Positions 53,904 through 64,000 of a DNA stretch of 64,000 bases are shown in pieces. Source of the DNA: Apophysomyces variabilis. Lineage: Eukaryota > Mucoromycota > Mucoromycetes > Mucorales > Mucoraceae. The stretch is taken from assembly GCA_002749535.1 (NCBI GenBank), contig MZZL01000387.1, positions 265,249-329,248 of the forward strand, written 5' to 3'. Under the pieces are notes generated by a model. The model was not told the DNA's origin, searched no databases, and was given only the letters and a program-made list of their open reading frames with translations. The position numbers and the translations under genes were made by a program. Numbering within the stretch: position 1 is the first letter of the stretch; each line of letters starts with the position of its first letter.

Positions 53904-55149
53904 ACGGTTCAATAGTATTAATACAATGTTACAATATCTATGTTTTTTCTTTCATTTCCTTTGCATTAAAAAATGATACAATTTCTGCACGAAGAAGCCT
54001 TTCCATACCCGCCTATCAGTTTAGTAGACAAGCACAAGCATGTTTAAAATCAGGTTATACGACGAGCCTATCTAGAACGGATATGGTTTCGGTCCTCTAG
54101 CCACGCTTTATCTCCAATCTATCGTAGTAAATTCGTTAATCCTGAATCGCGTGCCTAAGTCCTTACACTCTGGTCTAGCAACTGTTTGATATTTTCCAAC
54201 GGATAGGTTATTTGCGAAACGTAAATTAACGGTGAAGACTACTTTATGATGATGCAAATAACCTTCAGTACGGCATTAGTAACATATACACCCTGGTTCG
54301 GTCTAATTGAAAGAAGAATTTAAAAAAAACCCACTTGTGGGCAAAAGGGGAAAAAAAAAAGCAATTACTTTTAAAATCTACACAGAACGGAAAAAGCATA
54401 AAATAACATTCAATAAACAGGGAAAGAACTTTTACAATACTTTCAAAGATTTGCTTATTCTTTTACGCTGACTTAATTTGTACTTTGCATTAGGCCCAAG
54501 AATTAAATATGCAGTACCTGACGATGTATGTTGTTTGAAGGTTGTCTTTCTTTTGTTTCAATTTGCAAAGCATTTTTCTTTCTTTTTCTATGCTAGTTGT
54601 TCACATAGAAGCATGATGTTTCTTTGTTCTATTCATCCATTCACTAGACTAGCTGCTTGGTTTATAAAATCTCTTTCTACTGTTGTTTCATGTCGCTATA
54701 AACCATCCATTGCATCTCCTTTAAATGACCGCATTTAATTGGGTTCGGTGATCCGAACTACTAAATCGAAGGGACTACTTCCATTTCAGCTTTGCATGTT
54801 TCAGTCCCTGGTATACATCCCATGATTTGTAGCTTACTTAAATTGCCGAGAAGGACGCCTTTGCTTTGATCTCTACTATTTCCACCTACTCTTTCTTTAA
54901 TTTCATTAGACCAGGAAAGTATTTCCTAGGTCCTTACACGCTATGCACGCTATCTATTGGTGCGCAATTATCTATCCAGCGGATATTCTGTTTGTTGAAA
55001 TATAAAAGTAGCCAACATCTCTTCATTATTGCCACGCCTTATGAATCTTTTATTAAGCCATCGCTTACCCAGACAAGATACAGTGTTTTCAAAAAGTAAA
55101 GTCGCAGGCTCTGAAAATCCATGTCACTGCTTTAAAAATGTCTGTCGCA
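53904..55149. other. Gene-free spacer left of the transposon cluster
   Basis: Contains NOG1 3' UTR, a solitary LINE 3' tail (listed separately) and short meaningless frames. No gene supported. Confidence 0.4.
54281..54360 (-). repeat. Solo LINE 3' tail
   Basis: In plus orientation it shares, in order, AACATRTMCA-like start, CTGGTTCGGTCT, an A run, ACCCACTTGTGGGCAAA and a second A run with the 3' end of the LINE at 5838-5907. On the minus strand CCCACAAGTGGG is a perfect hairpin followed by eight T. It is probably the severely truncated remnant of a second insertion. Confidence 0.6.
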
Positions 55150-55151
55150 TA

Positions 55152-55287
55152 CCGGATTTTTCCTTTGATTTAGCGTGCAAGAGAAAACTTTTGGCGTGCA
55201 AATAAAAAGGGGTGTGCACGCGAACCATTGATGGTGCACGCAAACCATTTTTGTGCCACGCGCAGATATATTTTTCATGCGCGCACA
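55152..55287 (+). repeat. Left terminal inverted repeat of the 5.6-kb element
   Basis: Starts CCGGATTTTTCC after TA. It contains two GCGTGCA words (about 55173 and 55194) and two TGCACGC words in the opposite orientation (about 55216 and 55232), a layout like transposase-binding subterminal repeats. Confidence 0.8.
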
Positions 55288-55369
55288 TTGATTTATTCAG
55301 GATGGACCATCTTATCGGTAATAACTCTGTCTGCAAATAAATGCTTTTCAAACCCACGCTACTTTTTTA

Positions 55370-56839
55370 TTATAAATCTTTTTCTTTTGCTAAGCATCGT
55401 TCAAAGAAAGATAGCGAATGCCTTATCCAACCCATACAATCTGTGGGAGTCACCAATTTGGTCGACTCTACAAGACGAGGTGTGAGGGAATCGTTTTCCG
55501 AAAGTTGGCTCCTTCGGACACCAGCCTTGACCTTAGACCAAAACTCCTCGATCGGGTTTAAAAATGGTGACCATGGAGGAAGGAACATTGGCTTATAGCC
55601 GCGATTTTGGATGGCTTCTTTAATCTGAGGTGACTTGTGTATAGGAGCGTTATCCATCACCAGGTAACGGCCTTTCATGTTCTTGATGTCCAGGACGTCC
55701 ATCACTGCTTCGATAAATGCAAGGTAATCATCTGTCCTTGTGCCGACTTTGGTTACGACGGTCTTTCCATTCTTTTTAGCTGTGCACACCTTAGGTTTGC
55801 GTAGCATGAGTGACACTACACCTCGTTCGCAGATCGCGCCCATAATGGTAATATTGAGTCCCTTTTGTGTTGGCACAACTGCTTTGGCTGGTTGACCTCG
55901 GGGAGCCCAGCCAAACCCACGCTTAATGTGCAGGTTGAATCCAGCCTCGTCAATGAAAACGCAAGTAGTAAGATAATTGAAGTCTTGTAGCTGGAGCCAG
56001 GATAAAATGGTATCGTGACGTTGATCAATAATACGGTCTGAATTTCGGACTGCAGGCAACTTGTTCAGCTTCTTCAAACTAAGACGACAATGCTTGACAA
56101 GATGCTTTTGTAAGCCAGAGAGCGTAATCGTCAAGCCAGGAAAGTTGGCAAGAAGCTCCTCCCTAGCTTGAGCAAGGGTGAACTCAACGTGATCCTCGAA
56201 ATATTTGATCAGGAATTGTGAGTGCTCTTCAAACAGTTTTCGATTACCGCATTTCCGCCCAACAGTAGGAACTGGTAGTTTTTGTTGAGTATCCTGTCGG
56301 TACTTATAAACATACTGTTGTGCGGTTCTTTCCTTGATGCCTACTTTTCGTGCAGCAGCAGCAGCTGTCATTCCTGAATAATCAAAGAGAATGACTGGTC
56401 AGTGCCAATTGCTTTTAAACAAAATCAGGCATTTACCTTGCTCAATCACCAAGGCAATTAATGACTGGACCTGTTCAAGTGTATATTTTCGATATGCTCC
56501 TCGCTTGTTTGTGAGTGGAACATCGATAACCGGTATTTTCGTCGTTGGTGTAGCTTCTTGGCCTTCTTGTGGGTGGAACTGGATTTGTTCGTATTCTATA
56601 AGAGTGAGAAGCAGACCTGTGTCTCGTTGCTGTTTCTCCCAGTCAGCCTTAGCGATATTGTATTGCTTGAATTCAGCCTGATCAACGTCCATCAAAGCAG
56701 GACCATCTCCACCAGCCAGATGGCTAATAGGGTTGGTTTCAAAAATATCAATCATACTCGACAAAGAAGCGCATTCGCTTTCTGTGTCAGTAGTATCATA
56801 GCTGTCGCTAGTGTTGCCACGGTGAGACCAAGGATCCAT
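55370..56839 (-). CDS. Intact IS630/Tc1-like DD34E transposase
   Basis: Two exons (56839-56437 and 56373-55370; GAGCAAG joins GAATGACAG) give 468 residues. The N-terminal 120 residues are acidic and unordered. The HTH begins at RKYTLEQVQSLIALVIEQG and continues across the intron as MTAAAAARKVGIKERTAQQY. The DDE core has CVFIDEAGFN (first Asp), YLVMDNAPIH (second Asp) and LNPIEEFWS (Glu), with 34 residues between the last two. There is no internal stop, so the protein could be active. The stop is 82 bp from the inner edge of the left inverted repeat. It shares a 137-bp divergent spacer with the HTH gene. Confidence 0.92.
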
Positions 56840-56976
56840 TATAGTATGCTACAGCAATAGAGTTGATCTTTTGTTAAGGTATATATAATTTTACGACTAC
56901 AAAAAGTTCCCGTGTAGTGCAGAATGCGAGTATAATTTAATGGGGCCTACTAACATTTTACTACACCATTTATTCT
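56840..56976. promoter_or_regulatory. Divergent promoter of the transposon genes
   Basis: 137 bp between the start codons of transposase and HTH protein. TATATATAATTTTACGAC near 56879 may serve as TATA element in one or both directions. Confidence 0.5.
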
Positions 56977-57489
56977 ATGTCATTCCAGAACAGTAACAAT
57001 CAGTACAACAATATCTTCGGTTCAGTCAATTGCATGGAGATTGATGCGACACAAACTGACCATCCAATGCCGCAAATGAATGTTGGAGGCACCACAACGG
57101 AAACGCCACCGTCGCAAACACAAGATGTAGTAGGAATATCAACACCACTTGGTATAATTCCACGCCATGAGATCGCTCCATCTACAGGTTTACAAGTTAG
57201 GACAAGGGCTATACGTCCACGTTCGTCTGGTTCCAGTGTAGACTTCCAGCGAGTGGCCAAATGTGGAAGGAAACCCATAAGCAACAAGTTGAAATACAAG
57301 ATATTCTACGAGTACTTTTTGTCCTCTGACAAAGAGCGTTCAGTGGACCAAGTCGCACGGCTACTGGGTATGAGGCATTCAACTGTCGGCAAATATGTGA
57401 AATTGTTTCGCGAAAATCCCCCCCTGGATATAGTTCAAGAAGAAAATCCTGAACTGTATTCACAGTTTTCAAATGAACGAACACAATAA
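56977..57489 (+). CDS. HTH protein of the 5.6-kb element
   Basis: A 170-residue single-exon frame. The first 95 residues are Asn/Thr/Pro-rich and contain no clear fold. Residues 95-150 (RKPISNKLKYKIFYEYFLSS, RSVDQVARLLGMRHSTVGKY, VKLFRENPP) form a helix-turn-helix of the kind that opens IS630/Tc1 transposases, but no DDE core follows. It may be an accessory DNA-binding protein, a repressor of transposition or the truncated start of another transposase. The intact frame and shared promoter with the transposase favour a working accessory gene; this is inference. Confidence 0.6.
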   Translation: MSFQNSNNQYNNIFGSVNCMEIDATQTDHPMPQMNVGGTTTETPPSQTQDVVGISTPLGIIPRHEIAPSTGLQVRTRAIRPRSSGSSVDFQRVAKCGRKPISNKLKYKIFYEYFLSSDKERSVDQVARLLGMRHSTVGKYVKLFRENPPLDIVQEENPELYSQFSNERTQ

Positions 57490-57628
57490 ACAAGTTCTAC
57501 TGCATTTATTTTCATTGAGTCATACATAGTGTTTCCTGTGTCTACAACAGGTCAGGCACAAATACATGCATCACCTTGTTTTTCTTCGTCCGTGCCGCCA
57601 GCATTTTCGTAAAATCGCACAAACCAAT

Positions 57629-57754
57629 TTGTCGTACAAGATTGTGCATGGGGCTGTTTCACACGTCGCTGCTATCCATAAACCGTCCATTAACCATCTA
57701 TAAACCCATTTGTCGTACAAGACCGTGCATGGGGCTGTTTCACATGTCGCTGTC
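57629..57754 (+). repeat. Two copies of an 81-bp unit
   Basis: TTTGTCGTACAAG plus GTGCATGGGGCTGTTTCACA appears at about 57629 and again at about 57710, spaced by 81 bp with a few substitutions. A degenerate third copy may begin at 57834 (TTTGTCGCATAGCCCCAT). Confidence 0.8.
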
Positions 57755-57831
57755 ATCTATAAACCATCCATAAACCATCCATAAACCATCCATAAACTAT
57801 CCATAAACTATCCATAAACCATCCACAAATT
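57755..57831 (+). repeat. 11-bp minisatellite (ATCCATAAACC), seven copies
   Basis: Seven head-to-tail units with single-base variants (ATCTATAAACC, ATCCATAAACT, ATCCACAAATT). Confidence 0.9.
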
Positions 57832-57937
57832 ATTTTGTCGCATAGCCCCATTGTTTTTGTTTCACACACAAGCTTTTTAGAACACGTTACAGTTCACTGC
57901 AGATCGCACTAGGCGCATTTTTTCTGAAATTATTGGC

Positions 57938-58126
57938 GCATTGTAACTGTTAATGCATCGCTTGCCTGCTGTGCTGTCGGCTGGGCGCAGATAAGGGCAG
58001 CAACGTGGCACACGTTTGATGACGGCATGTCGCATTGTAACTGTTAATGCATCGCTTGCCTGCTGTGCTGTTGGCTGGGCGCAGATAAGGGCAGCAAAGT
58101 GGCACATGTTTGATGAAGGCATGTCG
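57938..58126 (+). repeat. 94-bp direct tandem duplication
   Basis: The block from CATTGTAACTGTTAATGCAT through GGGCGCAGATAAGGGCAGCA to GGCATGTCG is present twice in a row, period 94 bp, with few differences. It lies 70 bp upstream of the degenerate transposase gene and could be part of its promoter. Confidence 0.9.
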
Positions 58127-58194
58127 CCTTGTTTCATTTGTTTTAGTCGTATCCTCGTTTTCTTTTTCGTCTCTTTATATTATTGTTTCTTACA

Positions 58195-59091
58195 ATGAAA
58201 AATCACACAACTGATACAAAAAATAAGGTCGTCAGCTATGTGATAGAGAAATGTGTTTCAGCCAGAGCAGCAGCAAAAGTATTTGATGTGCCTGTCCGAT
58301 CAGTCCAACGGTGGGTTAAAGAATACAATACGGGTAAACGAAGAACGACTCAAAATCGCATCAACAAACAGCATCTTTCTGGTGAACATAAATCATATAT
58401 ACGGAATTACATAGACAAAAATCCGGAAGCATCAATCGATGACATTCAGAAGAGCCTTATTCAGCAATTTGAGAATTTGCAGATTACAAAGTCATCTGTT
58501 GACACCTTATTGAAGAATGAGTACAATATCTCGTTTGAATATATGCCGAAGTTGAATTGTGCCAACGGCGAAGATGAGTTACACGAACGGGACCTTTTTT
58601 TAAAAGATTGGACACAACCCGATTTGGATTACACGCGCAATTGCATCTTCATCGACGAAGCAACTTTTGCTCTGTCTATGAGGGTCTCAAGGTCTTGGTC
58701 CTCCAAGGAAAAGATAGCAAACGTTCGAAAGCAGACACGTAAAATGCTCGTGGCATATTGTGCAATCGGGGTTATAAACATCAAGTTGCAGCTACCAAAT
58801 TATAAGGAAGGCCATCAAATGCAATATTTGAAGTTTGTAAACGAAACGTTGACAATAATGGGTCAGCACAATGTGTTTGCGGGATGTTATATCCTGGCAA
58901 ATAATGTACCTTTAGATGATCAAGCTACTGTTCAATCAAGGTTCGTCGATCATGGGTATAAGTATCTACGAATCCCGCTTATCCCGTGTGATTTGCATCN
59001 ACTACACTACTACTTGGAATCTTTTGTGCAACGCATAATGACATCTTTTCTACCCTTATTTTTCCTCCAGGGGTCGTTTGTTTCGGAATAA
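58195..59091 (+). pseudogene. Transposase-derived protein lacking the second catalytic Asp
   Basis: 298 codons from ATG 58195 without an in-frame stop. The HTH region (KVVSYVIEKCVSARAAAKVF, VPVRSVQRWVKEYNTGK) and NCIFIDEATFALSM with the first catalytic Asp match the transposase at 60924-62213 (KIEKCISASAAAKQL, NCVFLDESAFHINM). The second catalytic box is changed from MDNAPIH to LANNVPLDD, losing the Asp, and the NPIE box is replaced by LHYYLESF. An unresolved base lies at 59000, so the last part may contain an assembly error. Either a decaying copy or a domesticated DNA-binding protein; the long open frame keeps the second option alive. Confidence 0.65.
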
Positions 59092-59532
59092 GGTACACAC
59101 ACTCTCACATACTATGTTGCCAGATACCCTCAAAATTATACGACGGAAAATATAGCAAACAAACATTTGCCTCTCTAAAAGACAAGTTAAAGGTTTATCG
59201 ATCAATAATTTTAGCATAGATATCTCGATACTTACGGAGCTTCTTTTGCCAAAGGGGAAGTCCCAATTTTCAATTACCGACATACTCATATTGAAACCAT
59301 GGTTTCACCGCTTCACTGTTGCCATCCTTGATGAACGAGCATCAACCGCCCCACTCCAACGATTTATTTTCCAATGTTGTGACAGCAACGAACTTTTCCG
59401 ATAATTTCTTGTTTGACAAACATAGTCTACAAGATCAGCCTAGGGACATGGACATGCTATATCGTACGTTTTACCCTCAAAAATGATATTACAGTGAATG
59501 GCAGGCTCATGACAGGAAAAGAAAGGGATTCC
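59092..59532. other. Spacer upstream of the bZIP gene
   Basis: May contain the bZIP promoter and decayed remains of the preceding transposase. No gene seen. Confidence 0.4.
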
Positions 59533-60381
59533 ATGGAGGCCAATACCTCTCATAGCGAGGGTGACAGTTCAAGTATGTTCATGTTACCTTGATACTGTCA
59601 TATAGTCTGCTGAAATATCTGACGATTGGCTTATCTGATGCTTAGCTGAAGATATGATGACAAACCAAAGCAATCCATTTGCTCCTCACCAAGTAAGTAC
59701 AGGAGAGTATAGAAACGATTAAAGTATGAAAATCAATAGTTTTCTGTCGATCAACGACAACGCCGTAAAGAACAAAATCGCGTGGCACAACGTGCTTTTC
59801 GTGAACGAAAGGAACGCTATGTCAAGGAGTTGGAACAAAAAATTAAGAAAATGGAAAAGGACCACGCAGAAGATACCGATGCCCTTCGAAAAGAAAACGA
59901 TCTGTTGCGGTCATTGATGAAGCAAATGGAATCAGAGATGTATACTCTGAAAGGTGCTGCGTTAGCGTTTGAATTGTCCATGAAAAAGCTGCGTGAAGCT
60001 GGTATAGAGGTGCCTGATATACATGGCCATACCCGACAGCATCCATTCAGGCAAGCGGAATTAGATACTGGTGTTGTCGATCAGTCTCTGGCGCCGTCAC
60101 CATCCGTATCATCACGAGCTGATGAGTTTGCAGAACCTGGAATGGAACGGTTCGATCACACACCTGATCCAATCACCCTGACCGATGCCAAACTTATCCC
60201 GTATTCAAAAGTCTGGGAATTAGTATCAGAACACCCAAGATTTGATGAATTCGATCTAGAAGAACTATGTGAGGAACTCAAAAAGAAAGCTAAATGTTCA
60301 GGCACGGGACCAGTGATAGAGGAAACAGAACTAAACAACGTGCTCCAAAGAATGGACAAAGGTCATGTAACCAGTATATAA
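59533..60381 (+). CDS. bZIP transcription factor, Yap1/Pap1-like
   Basis: Three exons (59533-59572, 59646-59692, 59740-60381) give 242 residues. The basic region RRKEQNRVAQRAFRERKERY has the fungal AP-1 signature (NxxAQxxFR), followed by a leucine zipper (VKELEQKIKKMEKDHAED, LRKENDLLRSLMKQM). The C-terminal helical part (SKVWELVSEHPRFDEFDLEE, LCEELKKKAKCSG) resembles the C-terminal region of Pap1-type factors but has only one Cys in the place of the Cys-rich domain that senses oxidants. Oxidative-stress control through the c-CRD is therefore doubtful. The three introns-and-exons structure shows it is not a processed copy. It lies inside the inverted repeats of the 5.6-kb element, 260 bp from the right one. 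Confidence 0.85.
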
Positions 60382-60396
60382 TCAAAGTGTCACTAA

Positions 60397-60398
<2 letters not shown>

Positions 60399-60431
<33 letters not shown>
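60399..60431 (+). repeat. Poly(A) tract, 33 A
   Basis: Begins 17 bp after the bZIP stop, directly after CACTAAATA. It could be a slippage-prone homopolymer in the 3' UTR or the scar of a retro-insertion. Confidence 0.9.
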
Positions 60432-60432
<1 letters not shown>

Positions 60433-60640
60433 ACCTGAACAGTGTGAGTGTTTGAAAGAAGAGTGCCCGAAAGTGAGATTGCCCGAAAGTGGGAGTGCGC
60501 GAAAAAAGTGCTCGTAGCAATTCCCCTGAATTATGCGAGTGTGGTGATATTGTACTACTGATACTGGAGATGGAATATGCGCCTTACCTCCCGTACTGCG
60601 CTGGATGTACTTGAGCTGAATAAGAACCAAATGAATATGG

Positions 60641-60775
60641 TCTGCGCGCACGAAAATATGTCTGCGCGTGGCACAAAAATGGTTTGCGTGCACCACCATT
60701 AGTTCGCGCGCACACACCTTTTTATTTGCACGCCAAAAGTTTTCTCTTGCACGCTAAATCAAAGGAAAAATCCGG
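60641..60775 (-). repeat. Right terminal inverted repeat of the 5.6-kb element
   Basis: Reverse complement of 55152-55287; ends GGAAAAATCCGG followed by TA. The outer 59 bp are identical to the left copy; differences lie towards the inside. Confidence 0.8.
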
Positions 60776-60923
60776 TATTTTAAAAATAGATGGCGCTCTG
60801 CCTGGAAATCAAAATGTCGCATGCTGAGAATAAATTTGTCGCGGAGTAATTCTTGGCACTTCTGGTTATATATGTTGACGCCACTGCTCTTTTGCTGGTT
60901 TTTACTACTTTACAATTTCAAAC

Positions 60924-62213
60924 ATGAGTGCACAATTTTTATACGAAGATGGACAAGGAAATGTTGTCGATGAGAATGGTAGACCTGAGCCTATGGACTA
61001 CATTGTTGACCAGGAACAATTTGCTCTTGAGACGATTAGTTCGCATGCTCAATACTTGCAAAAGAAACCTGCTGAAAAATCTCAAACTAACGTGATGCAT
61101 GTAGATAGGCCTAGATATGAGGATTATCGTATGAGAGAGGCAACCGAAAAACGTACGTATACTTCTTACACTCCTCAGGATAAGGCTAGATTGTTTAAGG
61201 TGAAGATTGAGAAATGTATAAGTGCTTCTGCTGCAGCGAAACAATTGGGCATTCATGTTTGTACAGCCAAGAGATGGGTTAAACAGTATGAGGAATGTCC
61301 TGATAGCATCTTTGATACCGGTAAAAGGAAAGGTCGCAGACGCATTCTGACTGAGGAACACGTAAAGGCTGTTATCGACTTTATTGATGCTAATCCCTCT
61401 GCTGTTGTCGCTGACGTGATTGAGCATTTAATACAGCAATTTGATGGTCTTAAGGTCACGAATAGCACTGTCTATAACATCATGAGAAGAGAATGTAACC
61501 TTTCTGTGACGCAAGCAGAGTTTCATTCTGTGGAGAGAAATAGCCCAGAAAAGATTGAGGAACGACATGATTGGGTTCGCAAGTGGAAACAAACTGATAT
61601 GAAGTTCTTGACCAATTGTGTGTTTCTTGATGAGTCTGCATTTCATATAAACATGAAACGCACAAGAGCATGGTCTAAGAAAGGCACTCCTGCTATTGTT
61701 ACAGTGCCGACTACGAGGGCAAAGACTACGACTATATTGGGTGCCATCTCTGCTTCAGGTTTAATTAAAGTAAGCTTGAGGATACCAAGACCTGTTAAGA
61801 AGAGAAAGACTGGACAGGAATCTAGATATGTGAGTAGTGGCATTGTTACGGGCCACTATATTAGCTTTTTAAAAGACACTTTGGATGAAATGAACCAGTA
61901 TCCACATATGAAAGGTCACTACCTCATTATGGATAACGCTCCCATTCACAAGTCTGAAGACATTGCGAAGTATATTACGTCCCGAGGTTATCGCTGTGCT
62001 TATCTTCCTTCATATTCTCCTGAACTCAACCCAATTGAGCAATTCTGCTCTGTAGCTAAAAGTAAACTTAAGCGTCATAGATTTCTGGAGAAAGAGACTT
62101 TATCGACCAGAATCAGCGATGCTTGTAACAGCTTAACGTTGAGCGATTTCTGCAGTTTCGTTTCTCATTCACGTAATTGCTGGGATAAATGTCGTAATAG
62201 GGAGAAAATGTGA
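60924..62213 (+). CDS. Second intact IS630/Tc1-like DD34E transposase
   Basis: A single-exon frame of 429 residues from ATG 60924. The HTH part is KIEKCISASAAAKQLGIHVC followed by TAKRWVKQYEE. Catalytic boxes: NCVFLDESAFHINM, YLIMDNAPIH and LNPIEQF, with 34 residues between the last Asp and Glu. It is distinct from the transposase at 55370-56839 and closer to the degenerate one at 58195-59091. It starts 149 bp beyond the right inverted repeat of the 5.6-kb element, so it belongs to another element. I could not find its own terminal repeats in the flanks. All catalytic residues are present. Confidence 0.9.
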   Translation: MSAQFLYEDGQGNVVDENGRPEPMDYIVDQEQFALETISSHAQYLQKKPAEKSQTNVMHVDRPRYEDYRMREATEKRTYTSYTPQDKARLFKVKIEKCISASAAAKQLGIHVCTAKRWVKQYEECPDSIFDTGKRKGRRRILTEEHVKAVIDFIDANPSAVVADVIEHLIQQFDGLKVTNSTVYNIMRRECNLSVTQAEFHSVERNSPEKIEERHDWVRKWKQTDMKFLTNCVFLDESAFHINMKRTRAWSKKGTPAIVTVPTTRAKTTTILGAISASGLIKVSLRIPRPVKKRKTGQESRYVSSGIVTGHYISFLKDTLDEMNQYPHMKGHYLIMDNAPIHKSEDIAKYITSRGYRCAYLPSYSPELNPIEQFCSVAKSKLKRHRFLEKETLSTRISDACNSLTLSDFCSFVSHSRNCWDKCRNREKM

Positions 62214-62512
62214 TGTTGTAAGGCTTCAATAACAGCCAAGAATGTACAAACATGTAAGACATTTATTTACAACGTAAACAATACATAACTAGGTACAGTG
62301 TGATATTTTGATATCTAAGCGGCAGTACTAGTGTTTGCATATCGTGTGATATTAGTTAGTTACTAGTTGTCAGGTAAATTCTTTGGTACCCATATTCTCT
62401 TAAACTGGAAACTATGGACTATGTCGTGGGCCGATATGGATATCGTAATCTCAACTGGATTGCATAAACACACAAGAATGGTGTTTATATTATGATACGA
62501 TTCAGTCCAATA
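62214..62512. other. Spacer after the second transposase
   Basis: About 300 bp, AT-rich, no gene; expected to hold the 3' end of the transposon, but no inverted match to the 5' flank was found. Confidence 0.4.
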
Positions 62513-62628
62513 GATGGTACGGATGGTATGGATGGTACGGATGGTATGGATGGTACGGATGGTATGGATGGTACGGATGGTATGGATGGTACGGATGGTA
62601 CGGATGGTACGGATGGTACGGATGGTAC
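62513..62628 (+). repeat. 9-bp minisatellite (GATGGTACG/GATGGTATG), about 13 copies
   Basis: Alternating GATGGTACG and GATGGTATG units, then a run of pure GATGGTACG. It ends directly at the stop codon of the nuclease pseudogene. The same 9-bp motif is present in inverted orientation at 63827-63866. Confidence 0.95.
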
Positions 62629-62629
62629 C

Positions 62630-63785
62630 TCACTTTGCTTTATCGCTTTTCTTATACTTTTGATATTGAACTCTTAGACTTTCACCACTACCATAAGATG
62701 TCAACTTTCCCTGCTGAACACCTTCTTGCCAACAGGCATTCCAATTCATTTTACCAATTTTCCTTTTCATGTAGTCTTCGACAAACTTCATTGCCTCACT
62801 ACCGGGATTGGCTGGCGTTTCACCTATGTTCTTCTTGCTAGAGCTAGCTATTGGAGGTGGTTGCTCCATAGGCGTTACGCTTTCCGCATTTTCCTCTACA
62901 TTGTTCAGCACTGCTTCTTGGTATGTTCTTTTGAGATGTCCCGTGTACTTCAGGCCATCTTCAACATAACGTAGTGTTTTCGATGATTGTGGTATCTCTG
63001 CCTTGAGCCGATCGTATATCTTCTGAAATTGCGCTTCTGTCACTTGACAAACTGTTTTCAGCGCTTCAAGCTTTTCATCTTCTCCTTGTCTTATATGCTC
63101 AAATATGGCTTTCGCAATTTAATATAAAGCTACAATCGTCGGGTCATCCCATCTGTCCAACGTCATGATACACCTCTGTTTGTATGTCAAAAACATGTTT
63201 AATGCCACCAATGGGTCGAGATTGCCATTCTACGTTAGCAAAATGCTCGATAGTACTTTTTGAGACGAGAAAACAGTGCTGAGCCCAGAAATTGCTTGAT
63301 GATTGACGCATAAACGGCTTGTCACAGCAAACCGTGAAGGAGTCCATCAAACGGCATGGTGACAATTTTTCAGTGCAAACAATCAACAAGACGGGGAGGA
63401 CTTTGTACCTGCGGTATACATGGAGACAGTACTGGATTGCACGGTTCATGAAATCTTGATTCACCACTGATTGAATCTCTACCATAACAGGAGGTAAAGT
63501 CCCATTGAGAGCCAGATGAGGCAAGTACAGGATGTCACAACGTGTATTGTCTGGCCATTCCGTCTCAGCAGTTGTATATGTGTTATCGCTCACGTTTAGC
63601 AAAGCTTTTGTAACTAGGTCGACCACAGCCTGGTGCTTAGCAACACCTTTACTAAGTTTGTCACTACCGGGGCGATAAGTATCTGGCAACTTGAAAAGGA
63701 GTAACTCTTCTGGGACTACGTGGACAATTAGATGGACATATTGAATGCCAATGTCGAGTACCTTTTTCCATGTGCCTTGACATTT
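62630..63785 (-). pseudogene. Broken PD-(D/E)XK-like nuclease with C-terminal DNA-binding-like domain
   Basis: One ancestral gene of about 380 codons, now split. The N-terminal part (63785-63144) contains WKKVLDIGIQYVHLIVHVVP, HQAVVDLVTKALL, then the nuclease-like core NTRCDILYLPHLALNG and PPVMVEIQSVVNQDF (Asp, then E-x-Q) and YRRYKVLPVLLIVC. A one-base frameshift near 63150 and a TAA at about 63119 follow. Homologous sequence continues as AKAIFEHIRQGEDEKLEALK and runs to 62630 with LRYVEDGLKYTGHLKRTYQE. The C-terminus (KMNWNACWQEGVQQGKLTSY, LRVQYQKYKK) looks like a Myb/SANT-type helix bundle. No intact start is seen. The fold assignment is by motif pattern only. Confidence 0.6.
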
Positions 63786-63826: not shown

Positions 63827-63866
63827 GTACCATCCGTACCACCCGTACCACCCGTACCATCCGTAC
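63827..63866 (-). repeat. Inverted short copy of the 9-bp minisatellite
   Basis: GTACCATCCGTACCACCCGT and the following units are the reverse complement of GTACGGATG/GTACGGGTG repeats, four to five copies. Confidence 0.9.
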
Positions 63867-64000
63867 AAACCCTTGTGCAAATCGACTACTACTGCCATGG
63901 AAAACCCTGCCCTCCATTTGACCCTGCCCTCGGACTCCCACTTCTGAAGTGGCTGGAAGACACTCCCCCTTGACCCGTCTTTATTATGATTATTAAAAAA
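63867..64000. other. Right edge of the window
   Basis: 134 bases, partly C-rich (ACCCTGCCCTC twice), without a recognisable gene. Confidence 0.4.

Follow-up and report, generated by a model that had tools for sequence, protein, structure and literature searches.

Transposons of the Tc1/mariner superfamily usually measure 1.3-3 kb and carry one gene. An arrangement of three open reading frames (ORFs) is documented in the TBE elements of Oxytricha, themselves Tc1/mariner elements (PMC4724952). The locus considered here lies in a stretch of 64,000 nucleotides from Apophysomyces variabilis (hereafter the window; C71:265249-329248), whose numbering is used throughout unless a contig is named. It contains a real DNA transposon of the Tc1/IS630 type, about 4.8-5 kb long, that encodes a DD34E transposase, a small HTH protein and a transposase-like protein devoid of two catalytic residues. 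Searching the open-licence literature by title and start of abstract yielded no description of this element family. A preliminary description of the locus had proposed that the transposon captured a host bZIP gene, introns included. The analysis below leads us to drop this claim: the bZIP cargo is almost certainly not a real feature. Searches were made against 38.7 Mb of genome sequence in 126 contigs, and the genome counts given are lower bounds.

A Tc1-like element inserted at a TA inside another repeat

The element is bounded by inverted repeats of 126 nt (55149-55274 and 60653-60778) that are 95% complementary. Their outer 59 bp plus the TA make 61 identical outer bases, and the identity stops at the TA, in agreement with the preliminary description. 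The left terminal inverted repeat (55150-55274, plus strand) starts with the target TA; the right one (60653-60777, minus strand), delimited by comparing the inverted repeats, ends with TA. A pattern made from the terminal 25 bases, with up to three mismatches allowed, occurred twice in the window as against zero times in 100 shuffles. When the genome was searched with the left end, related sequences were found in at least 22 places; apart from the facing pairs described below, many of these are single or truncated ends. TA precedes every end listed at up to five mismatches, with the one exception of a decayed end on C25, which is preceded by TG. Terminal inverted repeats were also seen in other two-ended copies.

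An empty TA site, whose existence the preliminary description had proposed as a check, was found on both C80 and C111 (96-98%). When the left flank was joined to the right flank at the TA, 6 of the 13 matches passed through the join: C80:521609-521792 (98%), C111:70667-70856 (96%), C80:512785-512960 and C80:505785-505960 (98% each) and, more weakly, C80:390086 (86%) and C62:120576 (78%). The alignment with the uninterrupted C111 copy crosses one single TA. Since the joined flanks match elsewhere through the join, the inverted repeats bracket one insertion, and the two outer halves of the scaffold do go together. The element occupies a TA at the upstream end of a second Tc1-like repeat. Judging from the known superfamily, it would move by cut-and-paste at TA. 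The repeat that received the insertion is a separate Tc1-like unit with an intact ORF (60924-62213) for a DDE_3 transposase of 429 residues (from the ATG) showing D-34-E spacing; uninterrupted relatives of it are present at three places on C80 and one on C111.

A larger unit was also considered, which would end at a third copy of the end beyond the window (C71:329558-329702, corresponding to window positions 64308-64454; a 9.3-kb pairing). It was rejected, as the flanks that adjoin each other in the empty sites are those at 55151 and 60778. The third end copy itself (64308-64454, L074:308-454) is 97% similar to the left end; no other part of the element accompanies it in the sequence examined. 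Inside the window, positions 62492-62644 are occupied by a minisatellite with a 9-bp unit, part of which recurs in inverted orientation at 63827-63875.

Genes of the element and its relatives in the genome

Transposase 1 (55370-56839, minus strand) is of the DD34E type and, in its spliced reading, has one intron between exons 56839-56437 and 56373-55370. The Pfam domain DDE_3 matches 55370-56398 on the minus strand (E 1.9e-28), and 34 residues separate the second D from the E. A copy of this gene on C92 is 98% similar, with the frame open. Divergent from transposase 1 lies a small gene (56977-57489, plus strand) designated HTH from weak matches, below the curated cut-offs. It gave nine matches in the genome (on C71, C92, C36, C76 and C25) and was seen only in copies of the element; no protein relatives were found at E 1e-3 among 25 candidates. 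The third gene, transposase 2, was identified by domain search and comparison with copies; its 5' part (58195-58999, plus strand) is cut off at an assembly gap. It combines an IS630-type HTH with a faint match to DDE_3 (E 0.037, below the curated cut-off). Among 842 candidates, no protein relatives were found at E 1e-3, and no phage record matched, a fungal element being hardly expected in such a collection. The intact DD34E transposase, the divergent HTH gene and the degenerate transposase of the preliminary description were all recovered, both as ORFs and as domain matches.

Transposase 2 retains the first catalytic D, but has N in place of the second D and no E at the third position. The residue N is present in the five recent copies examined (C71, C92, C11, C76 and C36) and in an old decayed relic on C89. 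The third position can be read in C92, C11, C76 and C36; in C71 the gap N at 59000 intervenes. Its reading frame extends over all 330 residues in C11; in C71 it stays open as far as the gap, in C92 it lacks 36 residues at the end, and in C76 and C36 it is disrupted. Among recent copies, substitution counts gave no pair with p < 0.05 for the HTH gene (6 pairs) or for transposase 2 (10 pairs); for transposase 1, two of the 10 distinct pairs reached p < 0.01. Comparison with the old relics, which are decayed, by simple counts with single-test p values, gave an omega of 0.76 for transposase 2 (p 0.047), 0.79 and 0.70 for transposase 1 (p 0.17 and 0.057) and 1.07 for the HTH gene (p 0.65). The simulated chance that a neutral frame would show no stop drops from 0.39 after 20 substitutions to 0.007 after 120, and hinges on the substitution number assumed. 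It is conceivable, if doubtful, that the family is a three-gene Tc1-like transposon that keeps a catalytically dead transposase 2 as DNA-binding partner or brake of transposase 1, plus the small HTH protein. A regulatory role for transposase 2 is conjectured from its anatomy.

Facing pairs of ends within 12 kb of each other are found on C71 (5.6 kb), C76 (4.8 kb), C36 (7.2 kb), C74 (1.38 kb) and C35 (1.31 kb). The C74 and C35 copies are internally deleted, the C36 copy has another insert of about 2.2 kb, and the C92 copy has lost its left end as well as the outer portion of its right end. The right inner part of the element (60432-60652, plus strand) is 95% similar to C76 and C36 and 99% to C91. 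The insert in the C36 copy (L076) is unrelated to the element; by eye, its frames resemble a reverse transcriptase and a tyrosine recombinase, presumably of the DIRS/Ngaro sort. Also on C36, roughly the final 250 bp of the element interior (L076:521-773) constitute a dispersed repeat, possibly a small non-autonomous transposon, which is the sole part matched in 22 of 32 genome-search rows. On C41 (L007, 1501-1706), 0.2 kb of the element survive with both ends, and the right flank of this remnant is 89% similar to the flank of the C91 copy (L008, from 1501), as if a single insertion, or a shared target repeat, lay at the origin of both.

Two relics bear on the history of the family. The one on C89 combines transposase 2 with a right end that is 80% similar across 49 bp; the one on C25 has the left end, transposase 1 and the HTH gene, and transposase 2 was not found in the next 3 kb. 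These relics indicate that each half of the element is older than the present copies. All three genes are seen together in recent copies only, and the whole element may be a fusion of two older elements.

The bZIP block and its edges

The bZIP gene (59509-60381) has the three-exon structure attributed to it in the preliminary description (59509-59572, 59646-59692 and 59740-60381), with bZIP_1 and PAP1 domains. It is part of a block (59001-60431, plus strand) made up of 508 bp of upstream DNA, the gene and a poly(A), in which 1431 of 1431 positions are identical to C95 (L073:2378-3808), a contig of 3,993,377 bases; the identity extends to the introns and the upstream DNA. The left edge of the block is the first base after a lone N at position 59000, and its right edge is a run of 33 A residues (A33, 60399-60431), neither of which had figured in the preliminary description. 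C95 continues leftwards for 2377 bases without a gap, and rightwards with A224 followed by N; in the window, A33 is followed by element sequence. A retrocopy, suggested by the poly(A), was rejected because the block retains the introns and the 508 bp of upstream DNA, with no difference from C95.

The other copies of the element are without the gene. Of 20 matches obtained in the genome with the bZIP sequence, two are at 100% (the window and C95), and none of the remaining 18 exceeds 67%; the further bZIP-containing copies that capture of a mobile gene had led one to look for were not among them. At the C95 locus the gene stands in the same genome without the element repeats, and C95 is absent from the at least 22 places with element ends. 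Conversely, the same two ends pair without bZIP on C76, C36, C74 and C35. These two observations correspond to the outcomes that the preliminary description had named as refuting its view, here obtained within this one genome. Between the equivalents of positions 58999 and 60421, other sequence is found in C76 (819 bp) and C36 (871 bp), including the end of transposase 2, and about the same amount of element sequence is found in C11; C11 and C92 also are without bZIP. At the position of A33, C76 has A10, C36 an interrupted A-rich tract and C11 A13, while C91 has an N beside the place.

With an N at one edge of the block and A33 at the other, the contiguity of the bZIP sequence with the element is doubtful on both sides, and an uninterrupted connection of the gene to both ends was not found within the window. 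Taken together with the structure of the other copies, these edges suggest that the bZIP sequence stands in for real element DNA. Judging from these sequence comparisons, the bZIP gene is very probably no part of the transposon, but was placed there by a poly(A)-mediated chimeric join during assembly. The short-read assembly would have produced, from the host bZIP locus on C95, a contig with a long poly(A) at its end and joined it to the element's A-rich tract, A33 being the probable join point. The chimeric contig would then have been scaffolded to the left part of the element across the one-N gap, with the bZIP sequence replacing a real 0.8-0.9 kb of element that includes the 3' part of transposase 2. 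How the single N at 59000 arose is something we infer; it is read as an assembly join by reference to the contigs abutted around an N on C36, where two identical 102-bp stretches have one N between them. The latter arrangement indicates that such single Ns mark contigs set end to end and left unmerged. The loci examined contain eight distinct single Ns, four of which lie inside copies of the element family (C71, C28, C36 and C91); the seven other than the C36 case were tested and were without such an overlap. Four distinct homopolymers of 16 or more bases occur in the loci scanned for them, and all three besides A33 touch gaps (one on C95 and two at a gap on C82). On C82 (L026/L028), near a bZIP paralogue at 67%, a 606-N gap is flanked by A20 and A28, a second case of poly(A) at a gap.

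The published assembly of A. variabilis NCCPF 102052 was made with SOAPdenovo2 from Illumina paired-end and mate-pair reads and totals 39,387,571 bases in 431 scaffolds (PMC5604411). If the match to PMC5604411 is right, the genome searched here is a part or a trimmed version of that 431-scaffold assembly, made with SOAPdenovo2 from Illumina reads. Some points count against an artefact. A very recent real duplication would equally give 100% identity; the outer halves of the scaffold belong together, so that the scaffold is not wrong as a whole; and the available part of PMC5604411 makes no mention of GapCloser or of the origin of single Ns.

A real and very recent capture would have copied the bZIP locus, with introns and upstream DNA, into one copy of the element, for example through template switching at the A-rich tract or through ectopic repair, and the gene could now be mobile with the element. 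In favour of such an event, the element has genuine ends, a genuine TA and a genuine empty site, and the gene is complete and identical to C95. However, the left edge of the block coincides exactly with an N and the right edge lies within a homopolymer, in the only copy to contain the gene, and the event would also have split transposase 2 in two; we regard this course of events as very improbable. It is exceedingly improbable that the two ends belong to different insertions, with the scaffold joining parts of two element copies across the N: the N does separate the ends, and half of the distinct single Ns do fall in this family, but the flanks joined at the TA align across the join with four places at 96-98% and, less closely, with another two (86% and 78%). 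Even so, the inner left and inner right parts of the element could come from different copies.

Had the cargo been real, a Tc1-like element would be carrying a host regulator about. As it stands, the locus is a warning that short-read scaffolding can mimic a gene-capturing transposon where a one-base N and a poly(A) tract come together.

Comparison with known systems

The gene in the block is an ordinary member of the PAP1/Yap1-type bZIP genes of Mucorales, with relatives across this order, and comparison with these genes brought out no difference. Its best relative is A. ossiformis EC973_008061 (94%), and A. sp. BC1015 has one at 78%; each of these clusters is listed with one contig, which counts in favour of the chimeric join.

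The carrier is a real, modestly unusual variant of Tc1/IS630 elements. Its placement in the IS630-Tc1-mariner superfamily, DD34E group, follows the TA at both ends (a single TA in the C111 copy), the terminal inverted repeats and a DDE_3 transposase with D-34-E spacing; together with the empty sites, these features bear out the earlier view of a Tc1/IS630-like element, longer than usual and with several genes, inserted at TA. It differs from the usual Tc1/mariner element in its size of about 4.8-5 kb, its three genes and a second transposase that has lost catalytic residues. This apparently dead transposase 2 may merit a look of its own. The likeness to the Oxytricha TBE elements (PMC4724952) lies in the combination of a transposase with two further ORFs, one of them opposite in direction, between inverted repeats. 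It extends to a region of short tandem repeats between two ORFs, to be compared with the repeats at 57672-57840 here. The extra genes, set side by side by description, differ: TBE elements have a 22-kD ORF of unknown function and a 57-kD zinc-finger/kinase ORF (PMC4724952), whereas the A. variabilis element has an HTH ORF and a paralogue of the transposase.
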